This document shows positions 697-28,177 of a stretch of DNA of 31,460 bases, piece by piece. Each line of letters begins with the position of its first letter. The stretch's first letter is position 1. The notes under the pieces were generated by a model. That model saw nothing but the letters and a program-made list of their open reading frames with translations, had not been told where the DNA came from and did no database searches. Both the position numbers and the translations under genes were made by a program. The stretch is from a virus: positions 1-31,460 of the IMG/VR virus record IMGVR_UViG_3300012920_003396; one strand, given 5' to 3'.

Positions 697-765
697 TTTA
701 AAGTCTCGTATATAAGAAAGAGTTACGCAGTAGTAATAATATATATATATATATAGGGGAAAATT

Positions 766-801
766 TTTGACACATGACATAAGAGATATTTATTATCTTT
801 G
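766..801 (+). promoter_or_regulatory. groEL promoter
   Basis: The -7 box TATCTTTG is at 794-801 and a TTTG is at 766-769. The spacing of 24 bases is slightly longer than the usual 17-23. The groEL ATG follows 22 bases after the box. Confidence 0.7.
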
Positions 802-823
802 TAAAAATTAAATTTAATTCAAT

Positions 824-2437
824 ATGCAACAACATGGATACAATCCGAAGGAGTTAAACTTCGGAGAGGAAGGACGAAAGAAGTTAGAAAGCGGAATCAC
901 GAAACTCGCTAATGCTGTAAAGAGTACACTCGGTCCTCGAGGTAACACAGTATTAATTGAATCACCACATCACACATCAGGTATCACAGTTACTAAAGAT
1001 GGTGTCACTGTAGCTAAGTCAATAGACTTGGTAGACCCGGTGGAGAATCTCGCAGTCAAGATAATGAAAGAGGCTGCGGATAGGACTGCGACTCTTGCAG
1101 GAGATGGAACAACCACAGCGATAGTATTAGCTGAAGCTATTATTAATATTGGTAATAAATATATTACTGATACACACAATCGTACTGAGGTACTAAGAGA
1201 GTTGGTCTTAGCTAAGGATTATGTAGTTGAGATGTTAGCTAAAGATTCTCTTAATATAACTGACAAGACGTTGAAAGATGTGGCTATAGTATCAGCGAAC
1301 AATGATGCTGAGGTGGGAGAGTTGATAACTGAAACTTATCTTGAGGTAGGCAAGGATGGTCTTGTTACAGTAGAGAAGGCACAGGGTGCTGAGACTTATT
1401 ATGAAACCACTAAAGGTTTACAAGTTGATAGAGGTTACATGTCAAACATGTTTGTGAACAATCACAAGAATGATGAGTGTATACTTGAGGATGTACATAT
1501 ATTAGTATCTGACTCAGAGATAAGTAGTATCATGCAGATTGATGGTGTATTGAAACCATTGGTAGCTGACCGACATAATATAAAGTTATTAATCATTGCA
1601 CCTTGTTCCAAGGAAATGGAGAACACGCTAACAGCTAATGTAGTAAAGAATGGTTTAAAGATATGTTCTATACCACCTCCCAACTTTGGATACAAACAAC
1701 ATGAGTTGATGAGCGACATTGCTGTGTCAGTAGGAGCAACATACTTCAGTGAGAAGACAGGAGATGATTTAAGCCTTATCGAGTTCAGCGACTTGGGTAA
1801 AGCTAAGAAGGTTATAGTGGGTAGGTCAAAGACAGTCATCATTAATAATGATGATGAGGATTTGGTATACAAGAGAGACCTGAGAGTTGAGGAGCTATGG
1901 GTTCAACATAATAATACAAAGAAGAAAGCAGATAGGGATTTTATAAAATCTCGAATTGCCACCCTTACGGGTGGCGTGGGTGTCATACATGTAGGAGGAG
2001 ACACTGACATAGAGCAGAAAGAATTATATGATAGAGTTGATGATGCAGTATGTGCTGTTCGAGCTGCACTAAGTGAAGGGATACTTCCGGGAGGAGGAGT
2101 TGCTTTGATGAGATATGCAGATATGTATAATCGCATGGACCACAAGGACAAGAACATAAAGGCAGCTATACAGATAATGTCTGAAGCGTTAATGGCTCCT
2201 GTTGTACAGATACTTACTAACGCAGGAAAAAACTTTGAGGATATATATACAGAGATACCAAAGAAGAACCATGGCTATGATGTGAAGAATGAAAAGAAAG
2301 GAGACTTGATAAAGATGGGAGTAATAGACCCATCCAAAGTAACAAGGTCTGCTCTTATCAATGCTATGTCTGTAGCGACAACAATACTAAGTACAAATGC
2401 AATAGTAACAATGGCGAGAAGTTATGAAACCAATTAA
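824..2437 (+). CDS. groEL: Phage chaperonin GroEL (HSP60)
   Basis: This 537-residue protein is full length compared with about 548 in Escherichia coli GroEL. It would form the ATP-driven ring that encloses and folds client proteins in the host cytoplasm. The equatorial ATP-binding signatures are all present: TLGPRGN (35-41), TKDGVTVAK (57-65, with Asp59 matching Asp52) and GDGTTTA (93-99, Asp94 matching Asp87). So are RVDDA (Asp407 matching catalytic Asp398) and GGGVAL (423-428). Residues about 205-345 look like the apical domain. The flexible Gly-Gly-Met tail of bacterial GroEL is absent; the protein ends shortly after the last equatorial helix. It has its own promoter, overlaps a groES-like gene by 14 bases and is therefore probably co-translated with it. 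The intact catalytic residues argue for an active ATPase. Confidence 0.97.
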   Translation: MQQHGYNPKELNFGEEGRKKLESGITKLANAVKSTLGPRGNTVLIESPHHTSGITVTKDGVTVAKSIDLVDPVENLAVKIMKEAADRTATLAGDGTTTAIVLAEAIINIGNKYITDTHNRTEVLRELVLAKDYVVEMLAKDSLNITDKTLKDVAIVSANNDAEVGELITETYLEVGKDGLVTVEKAQGAETYYETTKGLQVDRGYMSNMFVNNHKNDECILEDVHILVSDSEISSIMQIDGVLKPLVADRHNIKLLIIAPCSKEMENTLTANVVKNGLKICSIPPPNFGYKQHELMSDIAVSVGATYFSEKTGDDLSLIEFSDLGKAKKVIVGRSKTVIINNDDEDLVYKRDLRVEELWVQHNNTKKKADRDFIKSRIATLTGGVGVIHVGGDTDIEQKELYDRVDDAVCAVRAALSEGILPGGGVALMRYADMYNRMDHKDKNIKAAIQIMSEALMAPVVQILTNAGKNFEDIYTEIPKKNHGYDVKNEKKGDLIKMGVIDPSKVTRSALINAMSVATTILSTNAIVTMARSYETN

Positions 2438-2681
2438 TAAATATATTATAATAAAACCTATTGATGAGGAAATAAAAACCTCATCAGGTCTTTTACTATC
2501 TGCACATGATGTAGATAAGTTTAGATATAAGAAAGCAAAAGTAATAAAGCCGGGAACAACAGTTGAGGATATAAAGGAGGGAGATGAGATTTACTTTGAT
2601 AAACGTACAGGCTACTCTATGATGCTTAACAATGAGAAGGTAACTATCATTGTTGAGAGGGACGTTGTTGTTGTCTTGTAA
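2424..2681 (+). CDS. groES: GroES-like co-chaperonin
   Basis: This 85-residue protein would be the lid for the chaperonin ring. The start K-P-I-N-K-Y-I-I-I-K-P matches the first strand of GroES. Residues 16-31 fit the mobile loop, with Leu-Leu-Leu at 23-25 in place of the Ile-Val-Leu that docks on GroEL. KEGDEIYFD (51-59) matches the conserved G-D-x-(V/I)-x-F core. The C-terminal hydrophobic strand is also present. It is shorter than the bacterial protein (97 residues), mainly in the roof region. It overlaps the end of groEL by 14 bases, so the order groEL-groES is the reverse of the usual bacterial operon. Its 3' end overlaps the minus-strand gene by 35 bases. T4 gp31 is a known phage example of this role. 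Confidence 0.85.
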   Translation: MKPINKYIIIKPIDEEIKTSSGLLLSAHDVDKFRYKKAKVIKPGTTVEDIKEGDEIYFDKRTGYSMMLNNEKVTIIVERDVVVVL

Positions 2682-3087
2682 TCTTATTCATTTTCTTAAT
2701 CATGTTTCGGTACACCTTGTCGGTGTACTTTACATTCTTGTTGAACATAGGATTGATGTAAGGTTCTTCAGATAGTTCCTTACCACTAAGTTGATTATAC
2801 ATATTAGTCATCATACGTTGTGACTTAAACGATACTTTGTATATTGTTTTGTGAGTATGATTCTTTTTCTTGGAGAATACTTCAATCCATCCGTCACGTA
2901 GTAGTTCGTCAAACCTTCTCTCTCTCCAAGGAAGTAGTTCATCAAACTCCTTAAACTTTTGTTTGGTAAAGTATTTCTCTGAACGTAAGAAGAGTAGCAT
3001 CTCAAGTTCCGCAGTCTTGAGCTTATACTTTTGCAAAGTATAGTATCTGATTACCCTCCAATACTTGAGGTAGTCATCTTGAGCCAT
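2647..3087 (-). CDS. Probable winged-helix DNA-binding protein
   Basis: This 146-residue protein is the only minus-strand gene in the window. Residues 25-86 read as a MarR-like winged helix: a helix at 25-35, a second at 41-51, a likely recognition helix at about 55-66 (R-E-R-R-F-D-E-L-L), and a basic hairpin wing at about 70-86. The tail is basic and helical (Y-T-D-K-V-Y-R-N-M-I). I have the impression that similar proteins are common in marine phages next to small basic virion genes. It converges on groES with a 35-base overlap and shares its upstream region with the gene at 3146. It could regulate that gene, the repeats before groEL, or both. The fold is inferred by eye and the regulatory role is a guess. 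Confidence 0.7.
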   Translation of the reverse strand: MAQDDYLKYWRVIRYYTLQKYKLKTAELEMLLFLRSEKYFTKQKFKEFDELLPWRERRFDELLRDGWIEVFSKKKNHTHKTIYKVSFKSQRMMTNMYNQLSGKELSEEPYINPMFNKNVKYTDKVYRNMIKKMNKITRQQQRPSQQ

Positions 3088-3102
3088 TAAAATAAATTTA
3101 AT

Positions 3103-3110
3103 TAAATTTG
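3103..3110 (+). promoter_or_regulatory. -7 box for the gene at 3146
   Basis: TAAATTTG fits TAnnTTTG and lies 35 bases before the ATG at 3146. It overlaps the dyad shared with the opposing promoter. Confidence 0.55.
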
Positions 3111-3122
3111 TATTTTACAAAT
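3106..3122. promoter_or_regulatory. Perfect dyad between opposing promoters
   Basis: ATTTGTA (3106-3112) and TACAAAT (3116-3122) are perfect inverted copies separated by three T. The dyad is built from the two TTTG ends of the facing -7 boxes. It could be a repressor site, or simply a by-product of the two boxes. Confidence 0.5.
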
Positions 3123-3125
3123 ATA
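3118..3125 (-). promoter_or_regulatory. -7 box for the minus-strand gene
   Basis: Read on the minus strand this is TATATTTG, 30 bases before the ATG at 3087. It points towards the + strand box at 3103-3110, so each transcript would start by crossing the other promoter. Confidence 0.55.
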
Positions 3126-3145
3126 TAAATTAAAATTTTTTTATC

Positions 3146-3697
3146 ATGGCATACAAAAGAGACATGTCTTCGCCTTTAGCTGTTACTCCTAATCCGGGTG
3201 ACCCTGTAAAGAGGATGAAGAAAAGAATAGCTAAAGCTAAATTAAAAAACGAGTTAAAGGCTGTTAAAGCAAAAGGGAAAAACAAACGTAAAGTAACAAA
3301 AGCTAAAGCAGATGCGAAAGCAGATGCAATCTTGAAAAACAAAAAAGATAGACGAGCAAAAAGAATCTCATCAGTTGCGAAAAGCGTTAGAACTAAAAGC
3401 GTAAACGTAAAAGGAGATAGAAGACTGTCAGGTGACAACGTAACAAAGACAACTAAGATTACGAAAACCAAAAACGTAAACAAGAACAAGAACACTTCCC
3501 TAACTAACCAACAGAAGCAAGCTCAAAAGCAAAAACAAAAAGGAGCAAAAGCTTACGGAGGAGCAGGAGGAAGTTCTCGTGCAGGAGCAGGTTCACGTTC
3601 ATCTGCTGACAAAAGCAAAGTTACTTATAAGTCAAAGAACTATAGCGGATACAATGCAGAAAAAAGAGCGAGGAGAATGAGAAGAACAGCCCCGTAA
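3146..3697 (+). CDS. Lys/Arg-rich basic protein
   Basis: This 183-residue protein is extremely basic and has almost no hydrophobic core. Residues about 20-90 are Lys/Ala/Arg-rich with repeated K-A-K and A-D-A-K words. Residues about 95-130 are Lys/Thr/Asn/Gln-rich. Residues about 135-155 are Gly/Ala/Ser-rich, and the tail is Arg-rich (K-R-A-R-R-M-R-R). This composition resembles histone tails and DNA-condensing virion proteins. A role in packing or neutralising phage DNA, or in binding host nucleic acid, is plausible but inferred from composition alone. It has its own TAnnTTTG box and is followed by a long hairpin at 3730-3767. Confidence 0.75.
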   Translation: MAYKRDMSSPLAVTPNPGDPVKRMKKRIAKAKLKNELKAVKAKGKNKRKVTKAKADAKADAILKNKKDRRAKRISSVAKSVRTKSVNVKGDRRLSGDNVTKTTKITKTKNVNKNKNTSLTNQQKQAQKQKQKGAKAYGGAGGSSRAGAGSRSSADKSKVTYKSKNYSGYNAEKRARRMRRTAP

Positions 3698-3729
3698 AGC
3701 GGATGATAAAAAAAATAAACCAAATACAC

Positions 3730-3767
3730 GCATTCATATCCTTTCTCAATAGAGAGAGGATGAATGC
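3730..3767 (+). other. Long RNA hairpin without T-run
   Basis: Left arm 3730-3747 and right arm 3752-3767 pair over 16 positions with one G-T pair and a 2-base bulge, around an AATA loop. No T-run follows, so it is not a standard terminator. It may be a processing site or a stability element between the two basic-protein genes. Confidence 0.65.
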
Positions 3768-3800
3768 TATGGTACATTCACACACTCCAATATTTTAATC

Positions 3801-4094
3801 ATGGCAATAAAGAACAAAGAGGAAAGGAAAAAGAAATTAGAAGCTTATAAAAAATATCAAAAGGAAGCTGCATCAAGAACAAAGATGGCTAAAGAAAAAA
3901 GAGATAAGCTAAAGTCTACGAAGAGAAAGTCCATGGAGAAAAAAAATAAAGAGAAGAAAGAAAGGATGTTGAAGTTTGTAGAAGCATCTAAACAACAGAG
4001 ACAAGAGAATGAGTCTCAAAGAAAAGCAAGAAGTTATAACAGAGATACAGGTTCAGGTATTAAAAAGCTTCAGTGGTTAAAGACCGGAATCTAA
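3801..4094 (+). CDS. Small basic helical protein
   Basis: This 97-residue protein is rich in Lys, Glu and Arg and predicted by eye to be one long charged helix over residues 1-80, ending in K-L-Q-W-L-K. I do not recognise the family. It lies in a run of small basic genes between the winged-helix gene and the first virion surface genes. No promoter box is visible directly upstream, so it is probably read from the promoter at 3103 through the hairpin at 3730-3767. A nucleic-acid-binding or virion core role is possible. Confidence 0.7.
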   Translation: MAIKNKEERKKKLEAYKKYQKEAASRTKMAKEKRDKLKSTKRKSMEKKNKEKKERMLKFVEASKQQRQENESQRKARSYNRDTGSGIKKLQWLKTGI

Positions 4095-4114
4095 AGTATA
4101 TTAATTTTTATCAT

Positions 4115-4122
4115 TATCTTTG
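4115..4122 (+). promoter_or_regulatory. -7 promoter box
   Basis: TATCTTTG lies 21 bases before the ATG at 4144. The leader is A/T-only apart from the box. Confidence 0.7.
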
Positions 4123-4143
4123 TTTAAATAAAAATTTTTAAAA

Positions 4144-4368
4144 ATGAAAAAGCAAGGTTACAACGCAAGACTTGATGAGTCAATAGGTGGAAGACACAAA
4201 GGAGCTCACAAGCAATCAATGAAAGACAGAAGAGACGAAAGTAAAGCTATGTCTAAAAAAATGTATGGTCACTCTTATGGAGCAGACAAAGGAATGTCTT
4301 ATCGTCATTCTCATCCTGAGTGCGTTAACTATGTGAAGAAGCATCTATCAGGATTGATTAAAAAGTAA
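4144..4368 (+). CDS. Small basic His-rich protein
   Basis: This 74-residue protein is basic and rich in His, Lys, Ser and Gly. It has a middle part S-M-K-D-R-R-D-E-S-K-A-M and a C-terminal stretch with H-S-H-P-E-C-V-N-Y-V-K-K-H. The single Cys with nearby His residues might bind a metal, but one Cys and scattered His are weak evidence. It has its own promoter. Its stop codon overlaps the start of the next gene (TAATG), so the two are probably translated together. I do not recognise a function. Confidence 0.7.
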   Translation: MKKQGYNARLDESIGGRHKGAHKQSMKDRRDESKAMSKKMYGHSYGADKGMSYRHSHPECVNYVKKHLSGLIKK

Positions 4369-4535
4369 TGGATAACAACACATCAAAAGGTCTTGGAGAC
4401 TCGATAGAAAAGTTCACTACTAAGACAGGCATTAAGTCTGTAGTAAAGAAAGTAACTAAAGCTATGGGAGTTGAGGATTGTGGTTGTGGGAAAAGACGTG
4501 ACGCATTAAATAAAGTTGTACCTTATAAAAAATAA
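4368..4535 (+). CDS. Mini-protein with CGCGKRRD motif
   Basis: This 55-residue gene starts at the ATG overlapping the previous stop (TAATG) and ends 3 bases before the next ATG. The first 30 residues are Lys/Thr-rich and probably helical. The C-terminal half has E-D-C-G-C-G-K-R-R-D-A-L-N-K, with Cys38 and Cys40. I have a recollection of similar C-G-C-x-K-R-(R/K)-x-x-L-N endings in small proteins of many Bacteroidota phages, which makes this a real gene despite its size. The function is unknown to me. The Cys pair could bind metal, perhaps in a dimer or oligomer, or be redox active. Confidence 0.75.
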   Translation: MDNNTSKGLGDSIEKFTTKTGIKSVVKKVTKAMGVEDCGCGKRRDALNKVVPYKK

Positions 4536-4538
4536 ACA

Positions 4539-5012
4539 ATGGCATATCAAAAATTACAAGCCGGGTCTGCATTAGCTGTTATAAAAAGTGATGATGTAGA
4601 CATCCCTAATCCTGCATCATTAATGGTGTCATCTACAACAACGTCTGCTACAGCAAGTCAGTTAAACGATACAAATCAAAATTTTAATACATTGGGTGTA
4701 AAACCGGGTGATATTATATATGATAGTAGTAACACTGTTGCTTCAAAAGTAAACTTTGTTGTAAGTGACAATGAGTTAAATGTAACTCCTGCTATAGCAA
4801 GTGGTGCAAATTATAAACTATATGCACAATCATCACTACCAAGCAACGGGTGTGTATTATACATTGGCTCAGGTGGAGATGTAAGCATTACTACTGTTAG
4901 TGGAGACACTGTATTATTTAAAGGATTAGTAACAGGACAGTTTGTTCCTGTCCAAACTATACGTGTTAATAGCACAGGTACAGCAGCAGCAGACATAATC
5001 GCATTGTGGTAA
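4539..5012 (+). CDS. Putative virion surface protein
   Basis: This 157-residue protein is rich in Ser, Thr, Val and Ala and reads as nearly all beta strand. The C-terminal part (G-C-V-L-Y-I-G-S-G-G-D at about 104-114, then V-P-V-Q-T-I-R-V and I-I-A-L-W at the end) resembles a conserved small protein I associate with the structural regions of many marine phages. There it is usually annotated as a virion or spike protein. Residues about 40-90 hold a separate beta module (V-K-P-G-D-I-I-Y-D). The gene starts 3 bases after the preceding one and ends 3 bases before the lectin gene. A decoration or adaptor role is inferred, not shown. Confidence 0.7.
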   Translation: MAYQKLQAGSALAVIKSDDVDIPNPASLMVSSTTTSATASQLNDTNQNFNTLGVKPGDIIYDSSNTVASKVNFVVSDNELNVTPAIASGANYKLYAQSSLPSNGCVLYIGSGGDVSITTVSGDTVLFKGLVTGQFVPVQTIRVNSTGTAAADIIALW

Positions 5013-5015
5013 GAG

Positions 5016-5852
5016 ATGAATCTATCAGGACTCGCTAACATAATAGGAAACTCCATTGTTGGAGGTATTCCCGGAGGGGGAGGAGGAACACCACCTCAAC
5101 CTGCGAATGCGTGGTCTATGCTTACAGATGGTGTTAATCAATATGCTCAGTCCGTTACTACACCTTACAGTACACTTGATGGAGATTCTAAGTGGTCTAT
5201 TAGTATGTGGTTAAAACCTGATAACTTTACCCACCATAGAATAGTTTTTTATATATCAAGAGACACTACTGCACAAAACTCACAATGCTTTGCTTTTTTA
5301 AGAGCAGGGGGTAAACTACAGTTTTCTATAAAGCAAGGAAATTTTCATAAACAAACATCTGTTGCTTTAACTGCAGGTGTATGGCAACATGTAGCAATAA
5401 CAGTTGACTTAACAACAGGAGTAAGTTACACTTATGTAGACATGTATATAAATGGTGTTCTTTCTAATGGAACAGACACTATGCAATCTACTTTTGGTAT
5501 CACAAGTGCACCAACATCTACGTCAAAAATAGGCATAGGTGAGGATGCGGTTTCAAATTATCTACCTACATACTACGGACATATTGATGAGTTTGCCATA
5601 TGGAGTGGTATAAAATTAAGTTCCTCAGATGTATTAGGTATTTATAATCAAGGCGGTGCAGGAAAGCCCGGCAACTTAAATCAATTAACTAACCCACCAA
5701 ACTTGTGGTACAGATTCGGAGATAACAACACACCTCCCGGAAGTGGAACTGCTATTCCTAATCAAGGAAGTTCAGGAGCTACGGATAATGCAATCGCTAT
5801 CAATTACTTATCTCCCCCTGCTCAGGGTCCTTTTGTAAATGATACACCTTAA
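5016..5852 (+). CDS. LamG-type lectin-like virion protein
   Basis: This 278-residue protein has a short N-terminal segment, a Gly/Pro linker (about 18-30) and a concanavalin-like LamG/pentraxin-type jelly roll at about 40-220. The diagnostic stretches are W-S-I-S-M-W-L-K-P, G-V-W-Q-H-V-A-I-T-V-D, the Y-I-N-G-V strand, and G-H-I-D-E-F-A-I-W near the end. Such domains bind sugars. In a phage structural region the likely role is surface display and attachment to host or environmental polysaccharide. The N-terminal 20 residues probably anchor it to the particle. It lies between two other probable virion genes. Confidence 0.82.
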   Translation: MNLSGLANIIGNSIVGGIPGGGGGTPPQPANAWSMLTDGVNQYAQSVTTPYSTLDGDSKWSISMWLKPDNFTHHRIVFYISRDTTAQNSQCFAFLRAGGKLQFSIKQGNFHKQTSVALTAGVWQHVAITVDLTTGVSYTYVDMYINGVLSNGTDTMQSTFGITSAPTSTSKIGIGEDAVSNYLPTYYGHIDEFAIWSGIKLSSSDVLGIYNQGGAGKPGNLNQLTNPPNLWYRFGDNNTPPGSGTAIPNQGSSGATDNAIAINYLSPPAQGPFVNDTP

Positions 5853-5862
5853 TATATAAACT

Positions 5863-6117
5863 ATGGCAGTAAGAAGTACATATAATTTTTACGCAGTGAT
5901 AAATGTAAGTGACCTTAATAAAATGGATTACTCACAAATATCAACCACCTCACGAGAAACAGTTAGATACAACATTGCTAATACAGAGTTTATAACTTCA
6001 TGGAACACTACACCTACTTTTATTAGTGATGGAAGTGTTACTCCTGTTAGCACAATGAACCATGCTGATGCAGTGGAGCTTGTTGCTTCTGCTGATTGGA
6101 GTCTTCCTATAGAGTAA
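5863..6117 (+). CDS. Small protein of unknown function
   Basis: This 84-residue protein starts with Y-N-F-Y-A-V-I-N-V-S-D-L and ends L-V-A-S-A-D-W-S-L-P-I-E. The middle is Thr/Ser/Asn-rich. I do not recognise it. It starts 10 bases after the lectin gene and precedes a promoter, so it closes this transcription unit. By position it may be a small virion protein or a partner of the lectin protein. Confidence 0.65.
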   Translation: MAVRSTYNFYAVINVSDLNKMDYSQISTTSRETVRYNIANTEFITSWNTTPTFISDGSVTPVSTMNHADAVELVASADWSLPIE

Positions 6118-6130
6118 AAAAATAATTTTG

Positions 6131-6138
6131 TATATTTG
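6131..6138 (+). promoter_or_regulatory. -7 promoter box
   Basis: TATATTTG lies 32 bases before the ATG at 6171 and would drive the first lysis pair. Confidence 0.6.
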
Positions 6139-6170
6139 TGACAATGAATTAATAGACACTTTTTTATGTC

Positions 6171-6437
6171 ATGAATCTATCAGAAAAAACTAAAATAACT
6201 TTTACTCCTGCTAACTTACTTTCACTTGTAACAACAGTAGTCGCAGTAACAGGAATATGGTTTCACCTTAATGGTCAAATCGAAGAAGCAAAAGAACTTC
6301 CTAAGAATGAAAATGATAAAGTTGTAAGAGAAGCCGTTCTAAAAATGAACGCTGATATGCAATACATTAAAGATGAGATAACTGAAATAAAATCTCGGAT
6401 GGAGAAAATGGAAGAAAGGCTTTACCAACTTAAATAA
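6171..6437 (+). CDS. Membrane-anchored coiled-coil protein
   Basis: This 88-residue protein has one membrane segment at about 14-32, ending G-I-W-F-H-L. A charged coiled coil follows from about 47 to the end (heptads around I-K-D-E-I-T-E-I and M-E-K-M-E-E-R-L). The layout fits an inner-membrane protein with an extramembrane coiled coil. It lies 3 bases before a putative cell-wall enzyme, so a holin or lysis-accessory role is likely. The product is too short to assign to a known holin class by eye. Confidence 0.72.
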   Translation: MNLSEKTKITFTPANLLSLVTTVVAVTGIWFHLNGQIEEAKELPKNENDKVVREAVLKMNADMQYIKDEITEIKSRMEKMEERLYQLK

Positions 6438-6440
6438 AAT

Positions 6441-7049
6441 ATGACTCTAATAGAACAAATGACTCTTGCTAAGGTGCAAGAAGTATTCAAAGAAAAGAAC
6501 TATGCGTTCTTCACTAAAGGAAATTACAACTTAAACATAATAGGAGTACGAAGTCCTAATCAAGTAGCTAATAGCTTTGATGACTATATGCTTGTTATAT
6601 ATAAAAAACTTGACAAGTGGGTTATCAATGAGTTTACCATTACTACAGATGCAGGTTTGTATTGGTTACAAAATCCTATGAATAAAAAGGGAACAGCACT
6701 ACTTGTTCCTAATCAGTATAGAAGTACATATAAACTTGATGGTCATGGAAGAACAAGATACGAAGCGTTGTGTCAGAGACTTGCTAATGTAGAAGTATAT
6801 CGTGATGACAACAAGGATAAGATACTTGACTATGATGACGCAACGAAGGAGTGGGGGATGTTTGGTATAAACATTCACCGGTCACATCCTTACCATGAGA
6901 AAGACACAGTAGATAAATACAGTGCAGGCTGTCAGGTCTTTCAATCTATATATGAGTATAATGATTTTATAGCATTATGCAAAACCTCATCAAGACTTTA
7001 CGGAAACAGTTTTACATATACCCTTCTTTTAGAAAGTGATTTACTATAA
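6441..7049 (+). CDS. YkuD-like cell-wall enzyme, putative endolysin
   Basis: This 202-residue protein has a C-terminal signature G-I-N-I-H-R-S (142-148) followed by K-Y-S-A-G-C-Q-V-F (159-167). The spacing between His146 and Cys164 and the S-x-G-C motif match the catalytic His/Cys of L,D-transpeptidase (YkuD)-type enzymes. The usual Arg after the Cys motif is replaced by Gln-Val-Phe. No signal peptide is seen, as expected for an enzyme released through a holin. Position next to a membrane protein supports peptidoglycan cleavage at lysis. The match is by motif only, so another Cys/His wall hydrolase fold is possible. Confidence 0.72.
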   Translation: MTLIEQMTLAKVQEVFKEKNYAFFTKGNYNLNIIGVRSPNQVANSFDDYMLVIYKKLDKWVINEFTITTDAGLYWLQNPMNKKGTALLVPNQYRSTYKLDGHGRTRYEALCQRLANVEVYRDDNKDKILDYDDATKEWGMFGINIHRSHPYHEKDTVDKYSAGCQVFQSIYEYNDFIALCKTSSRLYGNSFTYTLLLESDLL

Positions 7050-7060
7050 TTTTATTTAGT

Positions 7061-7068
7061 TATCTTTG
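7061..7068 (+). promoter_or_regulatory. -7 promoter box
   Basis: TATCTTTG lies 16 bases before the ATG at 7085, giving a very short leader. It would drive the coiled-coil gene and the fibre. Confidence 0.7.
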
Positions 7069-7084
7069 TATAAAATTAAATACA

Positions 7085-7309
7085 ATGAAATTAACTAAAG
7101 AAGAATTAGAAAGAGTTCAGGAATTGAACAATTCGTTTACTCAAGCAAAATTAGCTATTGGAGAGTTAGAACTAAAACGCCATGGAATGTTACAGGAAGT
7201 GGATAAGTTGAGACAATCTTTTGCTATTGAGGAACAGAAATTAATTAGTAAATACGGAGCTGATTCTGTTATCAACTTACAAACAGGAGAGGTGACAGAA
7301 AAGAAATAA
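7085..7309 (+). CDS. Small coiled-coil protein upstream of fibre
   Basis: This 74-residue protein is one amphipathic helix over about residues 4-55, with heptads around L-E-R-V-Q-E-L and V-D-K-L-R-Q-S. A short tail reads V-I-N-L-Q-T-G-E-V. I have a sense of having seen similar proteins in other Bacteroidota phages but know of no function. It lies one base before the fibre gene behind a shared promoter. It could be a fibre assembly partner or an oligomerisation factor; this is inferred from position. Confidence 0.72.
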   Translation: MKLTKEELERVQELNNSFTQAKLAIGELELKRHGMLQEVDKLRQSFAIEEQKLISKYGADSVINLQTGEVTEKK

Positions 7310-7310
7310 T

Positions 7311-9338
7311 ATGTCAAAGATAAGTAACCAAAGTGCGTATCCTGCAGCAGCACCTGCATTAGATGATTATTTAATTGGAACAGATGTTAGTGATAGTAAT
7401 GCAACCAAGACATTTACTCTTGGGGATATTACAGGTTTAACACCTGCAGATACTTTAGAAGAAGTATTAACAGCAGGAAATGTTGCAACTAATAATATAG
7501 TTTTAACAGGTGATATAACTTGTACCAACATAATCCCAACAAACATTGTAGATAATAATGGGTTAACAGGTACAGCAGGACAGCAACTTATTATTAGTGC
7601 AACCAATACACTTGCGTGGGGAGCAGGAGCAGCAGATACTTTAGAAGCAGTTTTAACTGCAGGTAATACTGCGACAAATGATATTAACCTTACAGGTGAT
7701 GTTAACTGTACAAACTTAGTAGCAACTGCAGGCGTAACAGGAACACTTGTTGTAGGTAATACTTCGGTTACTACTCCATTAGTTAGACCAACTAACATTG
7801 AGGATAGCATAGGAAGTACAGGATTAGCAGGACAATACTTACGTTTTCAACCCGGAGGAATTGTGTGGGAAACAGTGGGAGCGAATACATTACAAGAAGT
7901 CTTGGATGCAGGTAACACTGCAACACAAGACATTAACCTTACAGGAAACATAACTTGCACTAATTTAACTGCAACTCAGGATGTTAATGGAGATGTGTTT
8001 AATGCTACTACTCAAGTTAGCACTCCACTAATGGATGCTACAGACATTCAAGATGGTGCAGGTGCTACAGGAACTGCAGGGCAATATCTTACCGCTACAG
8101 GTACAGGATTGCAGTGGCAAACAGTTAGCCCTACAGCCATTCCTTTAGCGGATGTATTAGCAGCCGGTAACAGTGCAGTAAACGATATTAGTCTTAACGG
8201 AGATATAACTTGCAATATAATGGCGGCAGGAGGTATTCAAGATAATGCAGGTTCACTCGGAACAGCAAACCAAGTACTTTCCAAAAACCTTGCAGGTGAT
8301 TTAGTTTGGGAATCACTTCCGGGTCCTTTACTACCTTTAAATCAATATAAATATTTTGTTGGGGACGCATCTAATCAAGCAAGTGAATCAATCTTACTAA
8401 CAGAAACTGCAGCAGGAAGAGTGAACGCTACAAAGTTTACTACTCCTGACTTTGAATGTATTGGTGCAGGTTCTACATTTGTTCAAGAAGGAATGAATCC
8501 TTTAGGTGGTGGAACTAATCTCTCTATAGGAGCAAATAATTTAATTACAAATTTACATAGTCAAACTGTCATAGTAGGTAGAGGAAACAATGCAGCAAAT
8601 GTGGCAGGAGGGATAGGCAATGTTATCATGGGTAACGGAAACTTATCCGCATTAAATGGGACGCTTAATGGTAATTATATTTTTGGTGATGAGAGTATAT
8701 CATCAGAGACAACTTCTGTTGTCGATAATATTGTAATGGGTAGACGTGTAATGTTTAACACCACATCTGCACCAAACAATAATATTGTAATGGGAGCCTT
8801 CACTGCAAGTGTAGGAGCACAATCATCAGCTATGTTTAGTAATGTTGTGATTGGACATCAAGCAAGTAAGAACATAACAGATACTATGCGTAGTAATGTT
8901 GTGATTGGGCAAGCTGCTTTAGATGAAGTTACCACAAATGCAGCAGGTGTAGTAGTAATTGGAAGTAATGCTTTGAATGGAGGTACAGCTAAAACAGATT
9001 TAGCTTCGAGTATTGTTATTGGTGCAGATGCAGATACAGGTGCAACCACTTCTATTACTAATGCTATTGTTTTATCTAATGGAGCTGTAAACATTCCATA
9101 CGGACCAACGCAAACAGGAGTACAAGACAATGAAACTTTTATTGGTAACGCTTCAACTACTTACGCTCAGATTGAAGGGAGAATAAACTTCCCTCTTGTT
9201 GGAGCTGTAGGTGGAGGGTTTAAAGATGATGCCACAGCAGGTGCAGCAGGACTGACACGAGGTGATGTATACATGACTGATGGTACAGGAACAGTTGCTC
9301 CTCTAAATGTAGCAGGCATCTTAATGATAAAACAATAA
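7311..9338 (+). CDS. Tail fibre with tandem repeats and YadA-like roll
   Basis: This 675-residue protein is Gly/Thr/Asn/Ala-rich with three parts. Residues 1-45 include a short segment ending F-T-L-G-D-I and probably join the particle. Residues about 46-345 hold four copies of a module beginning (T/A)-L-(E/Q/A)-(E/A/D)-V-L-x-A-G-N and continuing I-x-L-(T/N)-G-(D/N)-(I/V)-x-C. They start near residues 46, 108, 191 and 277. Residues about 415-600 hold repeated N-x-V-(V/I)-(I/M)-G turns 15-25 residues apart, like the YadA head beta-roll of trimeric adhesins. This suggests a homotrimeric receptor-binding fibre. No C-terminal self-cleaving chaperone domain is seen. It overlaps the next gene by TAATG. 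Confidence 0.85.
   Translation: MSKISNQSAYPAAAPALDDYLIGTDVSDSNATKTFTLGDITGLTPADTLEEVLTAGNVATNNIVLTGDITCTNIIPTNIVDNNGLTGTAGQQLIISATNTLAWGAGAADTLEAVLTAGNTATNDINLTGDVNCTNLVATAGVTGTLVVGNTSVTTPLVRPTNIEDSIGSTGLAGQYLRFQPGGIVWETVGANTLQEVLDAGNTATQDINLTGNITCTNLTATQDVNGDVFNATTQVSTPLMDATDIQDGAGATGTAGQYLTATGTGLQWQTVSPTAIPLADVLAAGNSAVNDISLNGDITCNIMAAGGIQDNAGSLGTANQVLSKNLAGDLVWESLPGPLLPLNQYKYFVGDASNQASESILLTETAAGRVNATKFTTPDFECIGAGSTFVQEGMNPLGGGTNLSIGANNLITNLHSQTVIVGRGNNAANVAGGIGNVIMGNGNLSALNGTLNGNYIFGDESISSETTSVVDNIVMGRRVMFNTTSAPNNNIVMGAFTASVGAQSSAMFSNVVIGHQASKNITDTMRSNVVIGQAALDEVTTNAAGVVVIGSNALNGGTAKTDLASSIVIGADADTGATTSITNAIVLSNGAVNIPYGPTQTGVQDNETFIGNASTTYAQIEGRINFPLVGAVGGGFKDDATAGAAGLTRGDVYMTDGTGTVAPLNVAGILMIKQ
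7446..8340 (+). repeat. Four diverged repeats inside the fibre gene
   Basis: The in-frame modules start near 7449, 7635, 7887 and 8143. The conserved core is about 75 bases; the spacing (186, 252, 258) differs because the parts between cores vary in length. The DNA copies have drifted while the protein motif is kept, so the duplication is old and the repeat is under selection. Confidence 0.75.
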
Positions 9339-9562
9339 TGGATATTAGAAAGATTTCTGTTGGACCTGACTATAAGTCGGGAGCTATGCACTACTTGGTT
9401 GGTCAAGATGTGCTTAATGGAAGTCACAAGATACATCTTATTCAATTTGATGTAGATAAAAAATCATTTAAGATTTGGATTATAAGGTCCAATGAAGTAG
9501 TTTTATGGAAAGAGTTTACATCTCAAATCCCTATTTCAATAGAATATAACATAAACTTTTAA
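9338..9562 (+). CDS. Conserved small phage protein, function unknown
   Basis: This 74-residue protein reads I-R-K-I-S-V-G-P-D-Y-K-S-G-A-M-H-Y, then a beta-rich core and a final V-x-L-W-K-E-F followed by I-S-I-E-Y-N-I-N-F. The V-G-P-D-Y-K-S-x-A-M-H-Y start is one I associate with small proteins of other marine phages, but I know of no assigned role. It overlaps the stop of the fibre gene (TAATG), so it is probably translated together with the fibre and may help its folding or regulate its synthesis. Confidence 0.72.
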   Translation: MDIRKISVGPDYKSGAMHYLVGQDVLNGSHKIHLIQFDVDKKSFKIWIIRSNEVVLWKEFTSQIPISIEYNINF

Positions 9563-9564
9563 TT

Positions 9565-9753
9565 ATGAAAAATAGATTAATATCAAATTACGTTACTACA
9601 ATCGTAGGACTTTTAATTATGTCTTTTTGCCTTGTAATGATTTACACAGGTAAGGCTGATAGCACAGATATGAGTGGATGGTTAGCAGTATCTTTATTAT
9701 TCTTACGCTCTAAAGATTCCTTAATTGCTTTACCAAAGGATGAAGGAAAATAA
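9565..9753 (+). CDS. Holin-like membrane protein
   Basis: This 62-residue protein has a positively charged N-terminus, a membrane segment at about 9-28, a short polar turn with K-A-D-S-T-D, and a second shorter hydrophobic segment at about 37-48. A charged tail follows (K-D-S-L-I-A-L-P-K-D-E-G-K). The two-segment, class II layout and position before a spanin-like gene fit a holin that opens the inner membrane at lysis. Alternatively it may anchor another lysis protein. Its 3' end overlaps the next gene by 14 bases. Confidence 0.68.
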   Translation: MKNRLISNYVTTIVGLLIMSFCLVMIYTGKADSTDMSGWLAVSLLFLRSKDSLIALPKDEGK

Positions 9754-10453
9754 AAATGATATAACCACTATTAAAAATATTATTATAGCAATACTTATTC
9801 TATTGTTATGCATGAGTGGTTGTGCTGTATGGAGTAACTACAAGAAGTTAAAACACTACGAGAGACAAGTTAGTAAACTAAATATTGAAGGACAGTCCTT
9901 TGATACTCTTAGAGATGAAACAGGTAAGCTACTTGCAGAACAAGAACAAATCATTTTAACTCAAAAGCAAGCGATTGACTATGGGTGGACAGCCTACAGA
10001 AAATTAAAAAAACTACAAAGCAATGTAAAAGTAAAAACTGTTACAAAGCTTGATAGTATCTTTATTCCTTATACAAAAGATAGTATTGTAATTAAATATG
10101 ATACAGTGTATATGGATACTACAAAACATTTACATTCTATTACTGTTCCTCGTAAGTTTAGTATCTTAGACGAATACTATGCCATAGGGGGTAGAGTAAA
10201 AAAAGATGGGGTAGTGGTAGATAGCTTGAAGATATTTAATACTATGAATGTAAACATAGGTCTTAAATCTCAAGGACTATTTAAAAAACCTAAGCCTATT
10301 GTTATGGTAGATTATGACAACCCTTATGTTAGTACAATAGGATTGTCTAATATTATTATAAAAGATGAAAAGAAATTTTATGACCGAAAGTTATTTTGGT
10401 TTGGACTTGGATTAGTGAGTGGCATAACAACTACTGCAATTATACTTAAATAA
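9740..10453 (+). CDS. Spanin-like protein with two membrane ends
   Basis: I start this gene at the ATG at 9740 (237 residues); an upstream TTG at 9725 would add five residues. A membrane segment lies at about 12-30 and includes L-C-M-S-G-C, a weak lipobox-like pattern around Cys28. A coiled coil at about 35-95 and a beta-rich middle follow. A second hydrophobic segment makes up the last 20 residues. Membrane-tethered coiled coils beside holins are typical of spanins, which join inner and outer membrane in Gram-negative lysis. The C-terminal segment resembles a unimolecular spanin in reverse. I do not have a firm family. Confidence 0.68.
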   Translation: MKENKNDITTIKNIIIAILILLLCMSGCAVWSNYKKLKHYERQVSKLNIEGQSFDTLRDETGKLLAEQEQIILTQKQAIDYGWTAYRKLKKLQSNVKVKTVTKLDSIFIPYTKDSIVIKYDTVYMDTTKHLHSITVPRKFSILDEYYAIGGRVKKDGVVVDSLKIFNTMNVNIGLKSQGLFKKPKPIVMVDYDNPYVSTIGLSNIIIKDEKKFYDRKLFWFGLGLVSGITTTAIILK

Positions 10454-10459
10454 AATAAA

Positions 10460-11023
10460 ATGCGTTCACCTGAAAGGTTTATAGTTCGTCCCTATAATGG
10501 GAGGAGGTATGACAATATAAAAAATGTAGAAGGAGTCAATGTAATCATTGGAACTTCAGAAGAAAACTATAAAGTTTCTAATAGAGAAGCTGAGGTAATA
10601 TCTGTACCTTTAAACTATAAAGGAGAGATAGAGCCCGGAGATACTTTGCTTGTTCACCATAATGTCTTTAAGTTTTATAATGACATTAAAGGTAGAAGGA
10701 GGAGTGGTAGAAGTTTTTTTAAAGATGATTTGTTCTTTATTGAGGACGACCAATTTTTTATGTATAAAAAAAATGGTAAATGGAAGGCTTATGGAAAGAA
10801 TTGTTTTATAAAGCCTTTACCCAAAAAAGATACAGACATATATAAGACAGGTCAATACGAACCTTTAATAGGAACTGTTAAATATATTAATGAAGATTTA
10901 AAAAACTTTGGACTTAAAGAAGGGGATGAAGTAGGGTTTGAACCTGAGAGTGAGTATGAGTTTAGGGTAGATGGCGAAGTATTGTACAGAATGTTTACTA
11001 ACAATATAACATTTTTAGTGTAA
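10460..11023 (+). CDS. GroES-like protein, apparently tandem
   Basis: This 187-residue protein reads as one or two GroES-like folds. The first half (about 5-118) starts F-I-V-R-P-Y, has a loop with G-V-N-V-I-I-G (25-31) where GroES has its mobile loop, then E-A-E-V-I-S-V and E-P-G-D-T-L-L-V-H (58-66). The second half (about 135-187) gives I-G-T-V, K-E-G-D-E-V-G-F (153-160), the F-R-V-D-G-E-V-L-Y strand (168-176) and a final I-T-F-L-V. These match the GroES (T-R-G-E-V, V-G-D-x-V-x-F, I-x-x-E-E) core. A likely role is as a co-chaperonin or a structural relative. It lies directly before the packaging genes, far from groEL, and overlaps the next start by TAATG. I am fairly sure of the fold, less of the function. 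Confidence 0.68.
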   Translation: MRSPERFIVRPYNGRRYDNIKNVEGVNVIIGTSEENYKVSNREAEVISVPLNYKGEIEPGDTLLVHHNVFKFYNDIKGRRRSGRSFFKDDLFFIEDDQFFMYKKNGKWKAYGKNCFIKPLPKKDTDIYKTGQYEPLIGTVKYINEDLKNFGLKEGDEVGFEPESEYEFRVDGEVLYRMFTNNITFLV

Positions 11024-11304
11024 TGGAATCAAGTGAACTTAAATTAAAAATAATAGCAGCAGGTAAAAAAGCTGTAAAGGAGTTAATAAAAGTTGCTCAA
11101 GAGGAAATAATAAAGCCTGACCCTGAAGATGAACTTGCTGCAGATAGATTAAAGAACGCTGCAGCTACTAAGAAGTTAGCCATTATAGATGCGTTTGATA
11201 TATTAAAACGTATAGATGAAGAAAAAGAAAGATTAGATTACGAGAGTAAAGGAACAACACGAACAGATACAAAACAAGGATTTGCAGAAAGAAGGTCTAA
11301 ATAA
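11023..11304 (+). CDS. Putative small terminase partner
   Basis: This 93-residue helical protein has K-A-V-K-E-L-I-K-V-A, then D-E-L-A-A-D-R-L-K-N-A-A-A-T-K-K-L-A-I and F-D-I-L-K-R-I-D-E-E. Its length, helical make-up and position immediately before terL fit a DNA-recognising small terminase subunit. I see no clear helix-turn-helix, so the assignment rests on context. Its last 23 bases overlap the longest likely terL frame in a different reading frame, which has no ATG start. The two products may therefore be linked by unusual initiation or frameshifting. Confidence 0.65.
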   Translation: MESSELKLKIIAAGKKAVKELIKVAQEEIIKPDPEDELAADRLKNAAATKKLAIIDAFDILKRIDEEKERLDYESKGTTRTDTKQGFAERRSK

Positions 11305-13516
11305 TTTATACACTGTAGTTAAAGACTATATTCCATCTTCTCATATTAAGAAACATAATAAGAGAAAATCATGGACTTATGGGTATAACAAAGACTTTGA
11401 TGTTGTAGTTATATCTCGCACCGGACAAATAGGTGAGGTGGTTTGTATTAGTGGATTGCACATTGCCTTACCTTTAGCACCTCAACAGCTCGTTGACGAG
11501 CCATTTAATTATTGGCATAGAAAGGATTATCCTAAAGAGTTAGATAGAATAAATAGTATTTTTCAATGGAATGAAATGCCACGAGAGTTTAAAGACAAAT
11601 GGGTAGACTACATTGAAGAAGAGTTTGACCGCAGAGAAGAAGGTCATTGGTTTATAAACAAGAATAAACCTACTTATATTACAGGTGCTCACTATATGTA
11701 TCTTCAATGGACTAAGATTGATGTAGGGTATCCGGATTACCGAGAAGCTAATAGAATATTCTTTATATATTGGGAAGCTTGCAAAGCTGACAAAAGATGT
11801 TTTGGTATGGTGTATTTAAAGATAAGGCGTTCAGGTTTTTCATTTATGGGTTCAGCAGAAGCAGTTAATACCGCAACCATAGCGAGAGACTCAAGGGTAG
11901 GCATACTATCTAAGACAGGTTCAGATGCAAAGAAGATGTTTACTGATAAGGTAGTACCTATATCTCAACACTTACCATTCTTTTTTAAACCAATTCAAGA
12001 TGGTATGGACAGACCAAAGACTGAGCTTGCTTATAGAATACCTGCATCTAAAATAACCAAAAAGAATATGCATGAAGTAGGTGATGATGAGATGGAAGGA
12101 TTGGATACTACAATAGATTGGAAGAACACAGATGACAACTCTTATGATGGTGAGAAGTTATTATTACTTGTACATGATGAGAGTGGTAAATGGCTAAAGC
12201 CAAATGATATATTAAATAATTGGAGGGTAACCAAAACTTGTTTAAGGTTAGGTAGTAAGATAATTGGTAAGTGCATGATGGGTTCTACATCAAATGCATT
12301 AAGCAAGGGAGGAAGTAACTTTAAAAAGTTATACGAAAGTTCTAATGTAATGAAAAGAAACTCCAATGGTATGACAAAGAGTGGCATGTATTCTTTGTTT
12401 ATTCCTATGGAGTGGAACATGGAAGGCTTTATAGACAGGTATGGATATCCTGTATTCAGAACACCAAGCAAAGAGGTTAGAGGAGTGGATGATGAGATGA
12501 TTGACTTTGGAGCTATAGACTATTGGGAGAATGAAGTTACATCTTTAAAGGGAGACCCTGATGCATTGAATGAATTTTACAGACAATTTCCAAGAACAGA
12601 GTCTCATGCATTTAGAGATGAAAGCAACTCTTCATTGTTTAACTTAACTAAGATATATCAACAAATAGATTATAATGATTCTTTAATAACACAACATCAT
12701 TTAACACGAGGTTCTTTTCATTGGCAGAACGGAGAGAAGGATACTAAGGTTGTGTTTAGTCCTGATATACGAGGAAGATTCCTTGTTAGTTGGACACCTG
12801 AGAAAGCTTTACAAAATAGAGTTGTAGTTAAAAATGGAATTAAATATCCGGGCAATGAACACTTAGGTGCATTTGGTTGTGACTCTTATGACATCTCGGG
12901 TGTAGTAGGTGGTGGTGGTTCTAATGGTGCGTTACATGGTGTAACTAAATTCAATATGGATAATGCTCCAAGCAATGAGTTTTTTTTACAGTATGTTGCA
13001 CGACCCCAAACTGCAGAAATATTTTTTGAAGAAGTATTAATGGCTTGTGTGTTTTATGGTATGCCAATACTTGCAGAGAATAATAAACCAAGATTGTTAT
13101 ATCACTTTAAGAATAGAGGATATAGAGGATTCTCTATGAATAGACCTGATAAAGTATATAATAAACTATCTAAGACAGAAAGGGAGTTAGGTGGTATACC
13201 TAATAGCTCTGAAGATGTGAAACAATCTCACGCTTCAGCAGTAGAGTCATACATTGAAAAGCATGTAGGTATAGATATGGAAGGAACTTATAGAGATAAA
13301 GATGACATGGGGTCTATGTTATTCACAAGAACATTAGAAGATTGGGCAAAGTTTGACATTAATAATAGAACTCGATATGATGCAACAATAAGCTCCGGAT
13401 TAGCTATAATGGCTATACAGAAGCACTTATATCAGCCTCAGAAAAAAGAGTCAAAAATAAGCGTTAACTTTGCAAGGTATAATAACAAGGGAAGAATCAG
13501 TGAATTAATAAAATAA
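11282..13516 (+). CDS. terL: Terminase large subunit (TerL)
   Basis: This protein of about 744 residues is the packaging motor. The ATPase part has K-I-R-R-S-G-F-S-F (about 179-188) as a divergent Walker A in which the usual Lys-Ser/Thr is not obvious. It also has L-L-L-L-V-H-D-E-S-G-K-W (about 293-304) as Walker B with catalytic Glu, and M-M-G-S-T-S-N (about 335) as coupling motif. The nuclease part (about 530-680) begins G-A-F-G-C-D-S-Y-D-I-S, with acidic residues for metal binding, and continues P-I-L-A-E-N-N-K-P-R-L. The start is uncertain: the frame opens after a TAG at 11234, with only ATT (11237), ATA (11267) and TTG (11282) as candidates, and no ATG for about 97 codons. The stop overlaps the portal start (TAATG). 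Confidence 0.93.
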   Translation: MQKEGLNNLYTVVKDYIPSSHIKKHNKRKSWTYGYNKDFDVVVISRTGQIGEVVCISGLHIALPLAPQQLVDEPFNYWHRKDYPKELDRINSIFQWNEMPREFKDKWVDYIEEEFDRREEGHWFINKNKPTYITGAHYMYLQWTKIDVGYPDYREANRIFFIYWEACKADKRCFGMVYLKIRRSGFSFMGSAEAVNTATIARDSRVGILSKTGSDAKKMFTDKVVPISQHLPFFFKPIQDGMDRPKTELAYRIPASKITKKNMHEVGDDEMEGLDTTIDWKNTDDNSYDGEKLLLLVHDESGKWLKPNDILNNWRVTKTCLRLGSKIIGKCMMGSTSNALSKGGSNFKKLYESSNVMKRNSNGMTKSGMYSLFIPMEWNMEGFIDRYGYPVFRTPSKEVRGVDDEMIDFGAIDYWENEVTSLKGDPDALNEFYRQFPRTESHAFRDESNSSLFNLTKIYQQIDYNDSLITQHHLTRGSFHWQNGEKDTKVVFSPDIRGRFLVSWTPEKALQNRVVVKNGIKYPGNEHLGAFGCDSYDISGVVGGGGSNGALHGVTKFNMDNAPSNEFFLQYVARPQTAEIFFEEVLMACVFYGMPILAENNKPRLLYHFKNRGYRGFSMNRPDKVYNKLSKTERELGGIPNSSEDVKQSHASAVESYIEKHVGIDMEGTYRDKDDMGSMLFTRTLEDWAKFDINNRTRYDATISSGLAIMAIQKHLYQPQKKESKISVNFARYNNKGRISELIK

Positions 13517-17129: not shown

Positions 17130-18554
17130 ATGTCAGTACAATCAACACCGGGGTTCGATTTGCAACCCTCATCAGAGCGAGTGGCACTTGAGAGTAACTA
17201 TCTTGGGGACGCAAGCTTTAATTTTATGAATCAATATCTGCCTGACACATACGAAAGAGAATTTGAAAGATACGGAAATAGAACTGTAGCTTCTTTCTTA
17301 CGTATGGTAGGAGCAGAAATGCCATCTAACTCAGACCTTATCAAATGGGCAGAGCAAGGAAGGTTACACACAAAATACACTCAATGTGGTACAACTGCAG
17401 GAGCAGGAGATGATACAGCCACATGGCAGGTAAATGATACTTTAGTTCCTACAGGAGGAAGTATCGCAATTAGAAAAGGTCAAACAATTTTAGTAGACTT
17501 TAATGGTGCTACTACCGCTTCTAACAAAGCAGTTGTTACATCTGTAGATTATGCAGCAGGTACATTTGACGTAGCTTACTACGAAGGTGGTGGTCAAGGA
17601 GCTGCAGGTACAACTGCAGCAGCAAGTGATGCGACAATAATGATTTACGGGTCTGAATTTGTTAAAGGTAGCGACTCTATGGAGGACTCTTTAGAAGCTA
17701 ATGATGTTTTCTTTGACAACAAACCAATCATTATTAAAGATAAGTATGCAGTATCAGGTTCTGATATGGCACAAATCGGATGGGTTGAAATCACAACTGA
17801 GAATGGAGGAACAGGATACCTATGGTATTTAAAGTCTGAGCATGAAACAAGACTACGTTTTGAAGATTACTTGGAGACTGCAATGATTGAAACAGTTCCT
17901 GCAGAAGCAAATTCAGGAGCAATCGCAGCGACTGTTTTAGGAAACCCATCAGGTTCAGAAGGTGTATTCTACACAGTTAATGATAGAGGTAATGTATGGC
18001 AAGGAACAAACCCTGCTACATTAAATGCATGGGATACTATTGTACAACGTCTTGACAAACAAGGTTCTATTGAAGAGAATGCTCTTTTCTTGAATCGTCA
18101 GTTTGGTTTTGATATTGACGATATGTTAGCTCAGCAAAACTCTTATGGAGCAAACGGGTCTTCTTATGGACTGTTTGACAATGATGAAGAGATGGCTCTT
18201 AACTTAGGTTTCTCAGGATTCCGAAGAGGTTATGACTTCTACAAGACTGATTGGAAATACTTAAATGACCCAACAATGAGAGGAGGATTGACTTCTGATG
18301 TTGTTAATGGTCTTTTAGTTCCTGCAGGTTCTACATCTGTATACGACCAAATTCTTGGGAAGAATGCTAAGCGTCCTTTCTTACACGTTCGTTACAGAGC
18401 TTCTGAAACAGAAGATAGAAGATATAAGAATTGGGTTACAGGTTCCGCAGGAGGAGCAAGAACATCAGGGAAAGATGTAATGGAAGTTCACTTCCTATCT
18501 GAAAGATGTGTTTGTGTTCTTGGAGCTAACAACTTCTTTATTTTCAAATCATAA
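17130..18554 (+). CDS. Major capsid protein
   Basis: This 474-residue protein follows the scaffold after a 24-base A/T leader and is followed by a strong terminator, as expected of a highly expressed coat gene. The N-terminal arm (about 1-60) leads into F-M-N-Q-Y-L-P-D-T-Y. A beta-rich stretch at about 90-165 (I-A-I-R-K-G-Q-T-I-L-V-D-F) looks like an inserted surface domain. Residues about 180-330 and 370-474 are alpha/beta, ending in a C-terminal strand (C-V-C-V-L-G-A-N-N-F-F-I-F). This fits an HK97-type coat with an insertion. I recognise it by context and style more than by one diagnostic motif. Confidence 0.85.
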   Translation: MSVQSTPGFDLQPSSERVALESNYLGDASFNFMNQYLPDTYEREFERYGNRTVASFLRMVGAEMPSNSDLIKWAEQGRLHTKYTQCGTTAGAGDDTATWQVNDTLVPTGGSIAIRKGQTILVDFNGATTASNKAVVTSVDYAAGTFDVAYYEGGGQGAAGTTAAASDATIMIYGSEFVKGSDSMEDSLEANDVFFDNKPIIIKDKYAVSGSDMAQIGWVEITTENGGTGYLWYLKSEHETRLRFEDYLETAMIETVPAEANSGAIAATVLGNPSGSEGVFYTVNDRGNVWQGTNPATLNAWDTIVQRLDKQGSIEENALFLNRQFGFDIDDMLAQQNSYGANGSSYGLFDNDEEMALNLGFSGFRRGYDFYKTDWKYLNDPTMRGGLTSDVVNGLLVPAGSTSVYDQILGKNAKRPFLHVRYRASETEDRRYKNWVTGSAGGARTSGKDVMEVHFLSERCVCVLGANNFFIFKS

Positions 18555-27799: not shown

Positions 27800-28177
27800 A
27801 TGAGTAATTATAACAAACCAAGTTTAAGAAAAAGAATAGTAGCTCAGGTAAAGGCAGGAACTAAAGGAGGTAAAGCCGGACAATGGTCTGCTCGTAAAGC
27901 ACAGATTGCAAATAAAAAATATCAATCAGCAGGTGGAGGATATACAGGAGCTAAAACTAAAAAACAAAAAAGCTTATCTAAGTGGACTAAACAGAAGTGG
28001 ACTACAGCAAGTGGTAAGCCTTCAAGTAAGACAGGAGAAGTATATGCTCCTAAGAAAACTATAGATAGATTAAGAGGTACAAGTAAGTTAGCTAAAGCAA
28101 ATAGAATAAAAAGAAAAGCAACACGTGCAGGAAAGCAACACGCTAACCATGGTTTGCATAAAGGTAAAAAAAGATAG
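27800..28177 (+). CDS. Basic DUF5872-like protein
   Basis: This 125-residue protein is very basic. It has K-P-S-L-R-K-R-I near the start, then G-T-K-G-G-K-A-G-Q-W-S-A-R-K-A-Q (21-36), A-G-G-G-Y-T-G, K-K-Q-K-S-L-S-K-W-T-K-Q-K-W (about 55-68), S-G-K-P-S, and a Lys/Arg-rich tail. The G-G-K-x-G-Q-W-S-A-R-K-A-Q and S-L-S-K-W-T-x-x-K-W blocks are what I recall of the DUF5872 family, found in phages and some giant viruses, with no known function. It is translated in a pair with the next basic gene (2 bases apart). The assignment is from memory of the motif. Confidence 0.82.
   Translation: MSNYNKPSLRKRIVAQVKAGTKGGKAGQWSARKAQIANKKYQSAGGGYTGAKTKKQKSLSKWTKQKWTTASGKPSSKTGEVYAPKKTIDRLRGTSKLAKANRIKRKATRAGKQHANHGLHKGKKR

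Follow-up and report, generated by a model that had tools for sequence, protein, structure and literature searches.

A GroEL/GroES pair and a predicted double GroES-like protein encoded by a Bacteroidota-type phage

A viral genome that encodes a GroEL followed by a GroES raises the question of what a phage does with a chaperonin of its own. The window, the whole stretch of 31,460 bases analysed here, belongs to a virus of Bacteroidota-type bacteria and carries genes for terminase, portal, head and other virion structural proteins. Judged from the sequence, the most likely role of the pair is to provide a chamber reserved for the folding of virion proteins, and we put the probability that GroEL and GroES work together as a cage at about two in three. 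The groEL-groES stretch is 98% identical in nucleotide sequence to a 60.8-kb IMG/VR contig. The nearest named relative is podovirus MW202828 from a Manatee Spring metagenome (TerL 74% identity), followed by Elemovirus of Flavobacterium (TerL 45%). The terminase large subunit gene (11282–13516, + strand; phrog_6681, E=3.5e-176) attests to the origin from a phage and serves as the landmark for a second co-chaperonin-like gene described below. It is followed by the portal gene (13516–15951, +; phrog_6547, E=1e-150) and by a gene for a 474-residue virion structural protein (17130–18554, +; phrog_13704, head and packaging, E=1e-96), which is probably the major capsid protein from its position after the portal and a putative scaffold. 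In relatives the structural cluster closes with a giant gene of ~3,700–3,860 codons (741–12320 in record L357, 33719–44803 in record L003), which would fall past the right end of the window. The left end (27–240) is G-rich and repeat-like, and the remainder of the window is AT-rich. The Bacteroidota promoter pattern TTTG-N17-23-TAnnTTTG has 3 matches against 2.0 expected, giving no evidence of such promoters.

The groEL gene (824–2437, +) encodes a group I chaperonin of 537 residues. The protein matches Pfam Cpn60_TCP1 (E=4e-58, 197.7 bits, cut-off 34.3), PHROG 'chaperonin groEL' (5e-125) and NCBIfam NF009487 (488, cut-off 352), while its score of 455 against the TIGR02348 GroEL equivalog is under the 582 cut-off. 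Residues were tabulated for the window protein and 81 clade members and compared with 33 bacterial GroELs. T30, K51, D52, D87, T90, D398 and D495 (E. coli numbering) are the same in the window protein and all 81 clade members, so that the nucleotide site is apparently intact, and the full-length GroEL with ATP-binding and catalytic Asp residues (D52, D87, D398) of the preliminary description is borne out. That description was also right about the missing Gly-Gly-Met tail. The window GroEL ends in ...MARSYETN, and none of the 81 relatives has the GGM tail, compared with 30/33 bacterial GroELs. A GGM-rich tail is usual in GroEL but not obligatory. Its loss had been read as a sign of a changed cavity or client range; taken by itself the tail is a weak argument for a changed GroEL, and the apical groove and the inter-ring positions make a stronger one.

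In E. coli the apical groove residues bind both clients and GroES. The hydrophobic groove found there is typical of GroEL, if not strictly defining, and the window GroEL departs from it. Across the clade, the position of L234 is acidic (Glu/Asp) and V264 is replaced by Ala, each in 81/81 members, R231 and Y203 are replaced by Leu/Met, and V263 by Ala/Ser/Thr. The window protein has L234D, Y203M, V263T and V264A, and keeps Y199, F204 and L237. The alignment is gap-free in helix H and anchored by N265 in helix I. These clade-wide changes in the groove make it probable that the phage GroEL favours its own lid and accepts few kinds of client. A second group of changes lies between the rings. R452 (33/33), E461 (or D), S463 (or A) and V464 (or I) are near-fixed in bacterial GroELs, whereas these positions are scattered in the phage clade, and the window has V, N, E and D. 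They are the four positions changed in the E. coli single-ring mutant SR1, and because all four differ in the window, GroEL may act mostly as single rings. The residue pattern thus points to a GroEL that is possibly single-ring and client-restricted.

The groES gene (2424–2681, +) encodes 85 residues and overlaps the groEL 3′ end by 14 nt (2424–2437), as had been described. The protein is assigned as Cpn10 by Pfam (E=7e-11, 42.4 bits, cut-off 21.1) and by PHROG ('co-chaperonin GroES', 2e-16), and the AlphaFold2 model (pLDDT 92.9) finds Cpn10 structures in Foldseek. The mobile loop is kept, TSSGLLLS, with its hydrophobic tripeptide, and its positions G22 and L25 are invariant in 31 sequences. 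The roof loop of GroES is variable in length and not strictly defining. In the window protein the roof segment has 8 residues (between G44 and G53), compared with 12 in a Flavobacterium GroES and 17 in E. coli GroES; the roof of Bacteroidota GroES is already short, and the difference between the phage and a likely host is only ~4 residues. T4 gp31 is also a phage co-chaperonin without roof loops, and it folds the capsid protein gp23 (PMC6318259). Foldseek matches the window GroES to gp31 (1g31), although the identity is only 12%, T4 uses the host GroEL, and the window mobile loop aligns at GroES length and is not lengthened as in gp31. The groES 3′ end is overlapped by the end of a 146-residue ORF on the opposite strand (2647–3087, −; phrog_17028, unknown function), whose counterpart at the same place in MW202828 is annotated 'repressor protein'.

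The reversed gene order, groEL first, is a trait of the clade. Among 80 related viral loci in IMG/VR, groES lies downstream of groEL on the same strand in 79, at spacings from a short overlap to ~2 kb, and in the sole exception the contig stops 395 nt past groEL. The order is shared with MW202828 and Elemovirus; in Cellulophaga phage phi38:1, cpn10 lies upstream of groEL. The pair had been called uncommon in phages, which is untrue for Bacteroidota podovirus-like phages: besides the IMG/VR loci, Elemovirus (68 records), phi38:1 and Maribacter phage Panino carry both genes, and published reports of GroEL and GroES exist for Panino and for Southern Ocean viruses (PMC11590407, PMC8407431).

The second co-chaperonin-like gene, missed in the preliminary description, lies near the terminase (10460–11023, +). 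Its 187-residue product matches phrog_13932, co-chaperonin GroES, over the whole length (2e-23). The C-terminal half (residues ~112–187) is, by profile comparison, a GroES domain: hhalign aligns domain 2 with the bacterial GroES profile over 75 columns (P=2.6e-9), and in a phi38:1-like relative (L258) the same part passes the Pfam cut-off with 36.8 bits. Domain 1 gives P=0.003 in hhalign, which is not significant, a profile search of the protein reaches GroES only at E=0.5, and phmmer finds no match to it among PDB sequences. The AlphaFold2 model (pLDDT 80.8) is mostly β, and its top Foldseek matches in the PDB, over the whole length, are 7ekq_R and 7ekq_Q, the former named a Cpn20 co-chaperonin subunit. 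The architecture is accordingly a predicted double GroES fold, with domain 1 assigned by fold prediction only. It resembles the Cpn20 of chloroplasts and apicoplasts in having two predicted head-to-tail GroES folds, and those systems also encode a single-domain Cpn10. It differs in coming from a phage rather than a plastid, in a domain 1 without significant sequence similarity and in a shortened mobile loop in domain 2 (KKDTDIYKTGQYEP), which has no obvious GroES tripeptide. In a Cpn20 a mobile loop with the tripeptide is expected in both domains; here a loop-like motif is found in domain 1 only, in a long loop modelled with low confidence whose consensus, similar to GGVxFIxSTS, is reminiscent of GGIVLTGS in the GroES mobile loop. 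The double protein of phi38:1 (4848–5432 of record L246) has NGLRVI in its domain 2 loop, which there resembles a GroES mobile loop, a feature lost in the window clade. This suggests that the two halves have diverged in function. The double GroES structure is called specific to eukaryotes of plant lineages in a 2013 paper (PMC3542282), and algal and plant Cpn20 and Cpn10 combine into seven-domain rings (PMC5780408). A limited set of publications, represented mostly by titles and abstracts, contained no description of the two-domain nature of the phage protein. IMG/VR contains many of its relatives (at least 468 and at least 587 confirmed stretches in two scans whose sets may overlap), and several are already annotated as co-chaperonins.

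The chance that the double protein is a lid falls just short of even. The competing explanation, that the GroES fold has been put to another use in building the head or packaging the DNA, for instance at the portal or terminase, is a serious one at somewhat less than even odds. It would account for the conserved place of the gene beside terL, for the domain 2 without a clear tripeptide, and for the strong conservation in domain 1, where GD60-61 and HHN66-68 occur in 74/74 non-redundant sequences (many fetched with a pattern containing GD..HHN, 19 fetched otherwise). It accounts less well for the Cpn20 co-chaperonin as top structural match, the loop motif of domain 1, the deposition of a relative from Cellulophaga phage phi18:3 as 'Chaperonin cpn10', and the constant company of GroEL. 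In 25/25 records longer than 56 kb, of 32 compared, GroEL, GroES and the double protein are all present. One of the seven shorter records has all three genes and six are without one or two, absences that fragmentation can explain. Most of the 32 records were picked for GroEL or the double gene, and the figure describes the company of the genes rather than their frequency among all phages. Of 15 additional records selected for the double gene, 12 have both GroEL and GroES and three (25–54 kb) have neither, so natural loss is possible. Between the double gene and the terminase lies an ORF of 93 residues (11023–11304, +), helix-rich in appearance, with 58% identity to its MW202828 counterpart and no PHROG match; it is a candidate small terminase. 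The ORF is missing before the terminase of Elemovirus, Panino and phi38:1, whose TerL has an N-terminal extension instead. Fusion of the ORF into these longer terminases was rejected, as it has no significant similarity to the extension.

The same three genes are already known and annotated in Elemovirus, and the GroEL/GroES pair also from phi38:1 and Panino. MW202828 shares the double co-chaperonin, annotated there as hypothetical, the terminase neighbourhood and apical changes of the same type, but its GroEL is only 57% identical to that of the window and its GroES 45% over part of the length. Elemovirus (Flavobacterium phages elemoA-F) has, besides the pair, a separate ~180-residue co-chaperonin GroES directly before the terminase; its GroEL, however, is 37% identical, is not on the same strand as the late genes and retains L234, and its GroES has 83 residues. 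phi38:1 and Panino likewise have a GroEL, a Cpn10-like gene and a ~190-residue double protein before the terminase or structural genes, while their GroELs are very divergent. The added interest of the window lies in its double co-chaperonin, its altered groove and the changes at the ring interface.

We propose that the phage would supply a group I chaperonin system of its own, reserved for its late proteins. In it GroEL would assemble into seven-membered, ATP-driven rings, and the small GroES would bind a ring through its mobile loop (SSGLLLS) and close the chamber; with a roof loop as short as this, a feature shared with T4 gp31, the dome would be more open. The putative capsid protein of ~52 kDa is the most likely client. 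At 474 residues it would fit the GroEL cage, whereas the structural protein of 1537 residues would be far too big, and the large hub protein suggested as a client in the preliminary description is therefore unlikely. The double protein would probably be another lid, of the Cpn20 kind, acting by itself or together with the small GroES in a ring of seven domains. A working cage is favoured by the invariant nucleotide residues, the constancy of groES, the three-gene set with its conserved terminase-side place, the mobile loop and the short roof. Some observations count against it: E. coli GroEL without its last 13 residues cannot substitute for GroEL (PMC11978752), the roof is short in Bacteroidota generally, domain 2 has no tripeptide, and domain 1 is fold-predicted only. 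For phi38:1, GroEL peptides have been detected both in infected cells and in a sample of free virions (PMC13288928). That GroEL is made in infection and occurs in virion preparations, which alone shows no role. The fullest form of the proposal, in which a widespread group of Bacteroidota phages has a self-contained system with a Cpn20-like double lid, possibly joined by the single-domain GroES in a seven-domain ring, a single-ring GroEL and a client-restricted groove, we regard as rather unlikely in all its parts at once.

The chaperonin might instead be a general auxiliary one that enhances protein folding in the infected host, for instance under cold conditions, with mostly host or replication proteins as clients and no part in virion assembly. 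GroEL/GroES genes are reported to be frequent in Southern Ocean viruses and have been read there as cold adaptation (PMC8407431), and in the window the pair lies 8 kb from the head genes, beside small genes without known function. The clade groove, however, departs from the general-purpose bacterial pattern, and in Elemovirus and Panino the terminase and portal genes come immediately after a co-chaperonin-like gene, so that we consider this role unlikely. Four small proteins very rich in Lys/Arg (3146–3697, 3801–4094, 27800–28177 and 28180–28476, all +) are possible DNA-condensing or internal virion proteins. The gene at 5016–5852 (+) encodes a protein with a Laminin-G/concanavalin-A-like domain (Pfam PF13385, 6.6e-20), possibly a host-binding protein.

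Less probable again is a GroEL that works without encapsulation, as an aggregation-preventing ring, with the small GroES vestigial or acting on host GroEL like gp31. The chaperonins of phages EL, OBP and AR9 are also phage-encoded GroELs with altered ring-ring contacts. EL GroEL hydrolyses ATP but neither encapsulates nor uses E. coli GroES (PMC7185714), and by this analogy a lid may be dispensable for the GroEL of a phage. The changed inter-ring positions, the missing tail and the acidic residue in the GroES-binding groove fit such a ring. Unlike EL and OBP, which work without a co-chaperonin (PMC5934643, PMC7185714), the window has groES adjoining groEL; the small GroES persists in 79/80 loci, is highly conserved and has an intact mobile loop, which points to a functioning pair.

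The GroEL/GroES pair is genuine and old. The best cellular GroEL among the matches listed has 41% identity (84,980 genomes searched with two short patterns, by which a closer one may be missed). In the full tree with all phage sequences the branches are long and deep placement is unreliable, and the GroEL tree was therefore rebuilt without the seven long rows. The window GroEL forms a clade with MW202828 and the 14 viral contigs sampled (support 96–100), and the near-identical flavobacterial placement that would have spoken against the preliminary description does not appear. Recent capture of groEL/groES from a host, or contamination in the assembly, conceivable for a common bacterial gene in a Bacteroidota-type phage and given some room by the AU test, which does not reject grouping of the clade with Flavobacterium-like GroELs (p=0.31), is rejected as highly improbable by the low cellular identity, the supported viral clade, the adjoining phage genes without a composition break and the AU rejection of a single clade with all sampled Bacteroidota (p=0.008). 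An ancient, distant flavobacterial source is compatible with the AU test (p=0.31).

Phage chaperonins studied so far either work without a lid (EL, OBP) or consist of a lid only (gp31). A phage set of GroEL, matched GroES and double GroES-like protein would reveal how a virus adapts a complete folding chamber to the needs of its capsid, and would put a repeated origin of the Cpn20 design to the test. Such work is feasible in Elemovirus, phi38:1 and Panino, relatives whose hosts are in culture.
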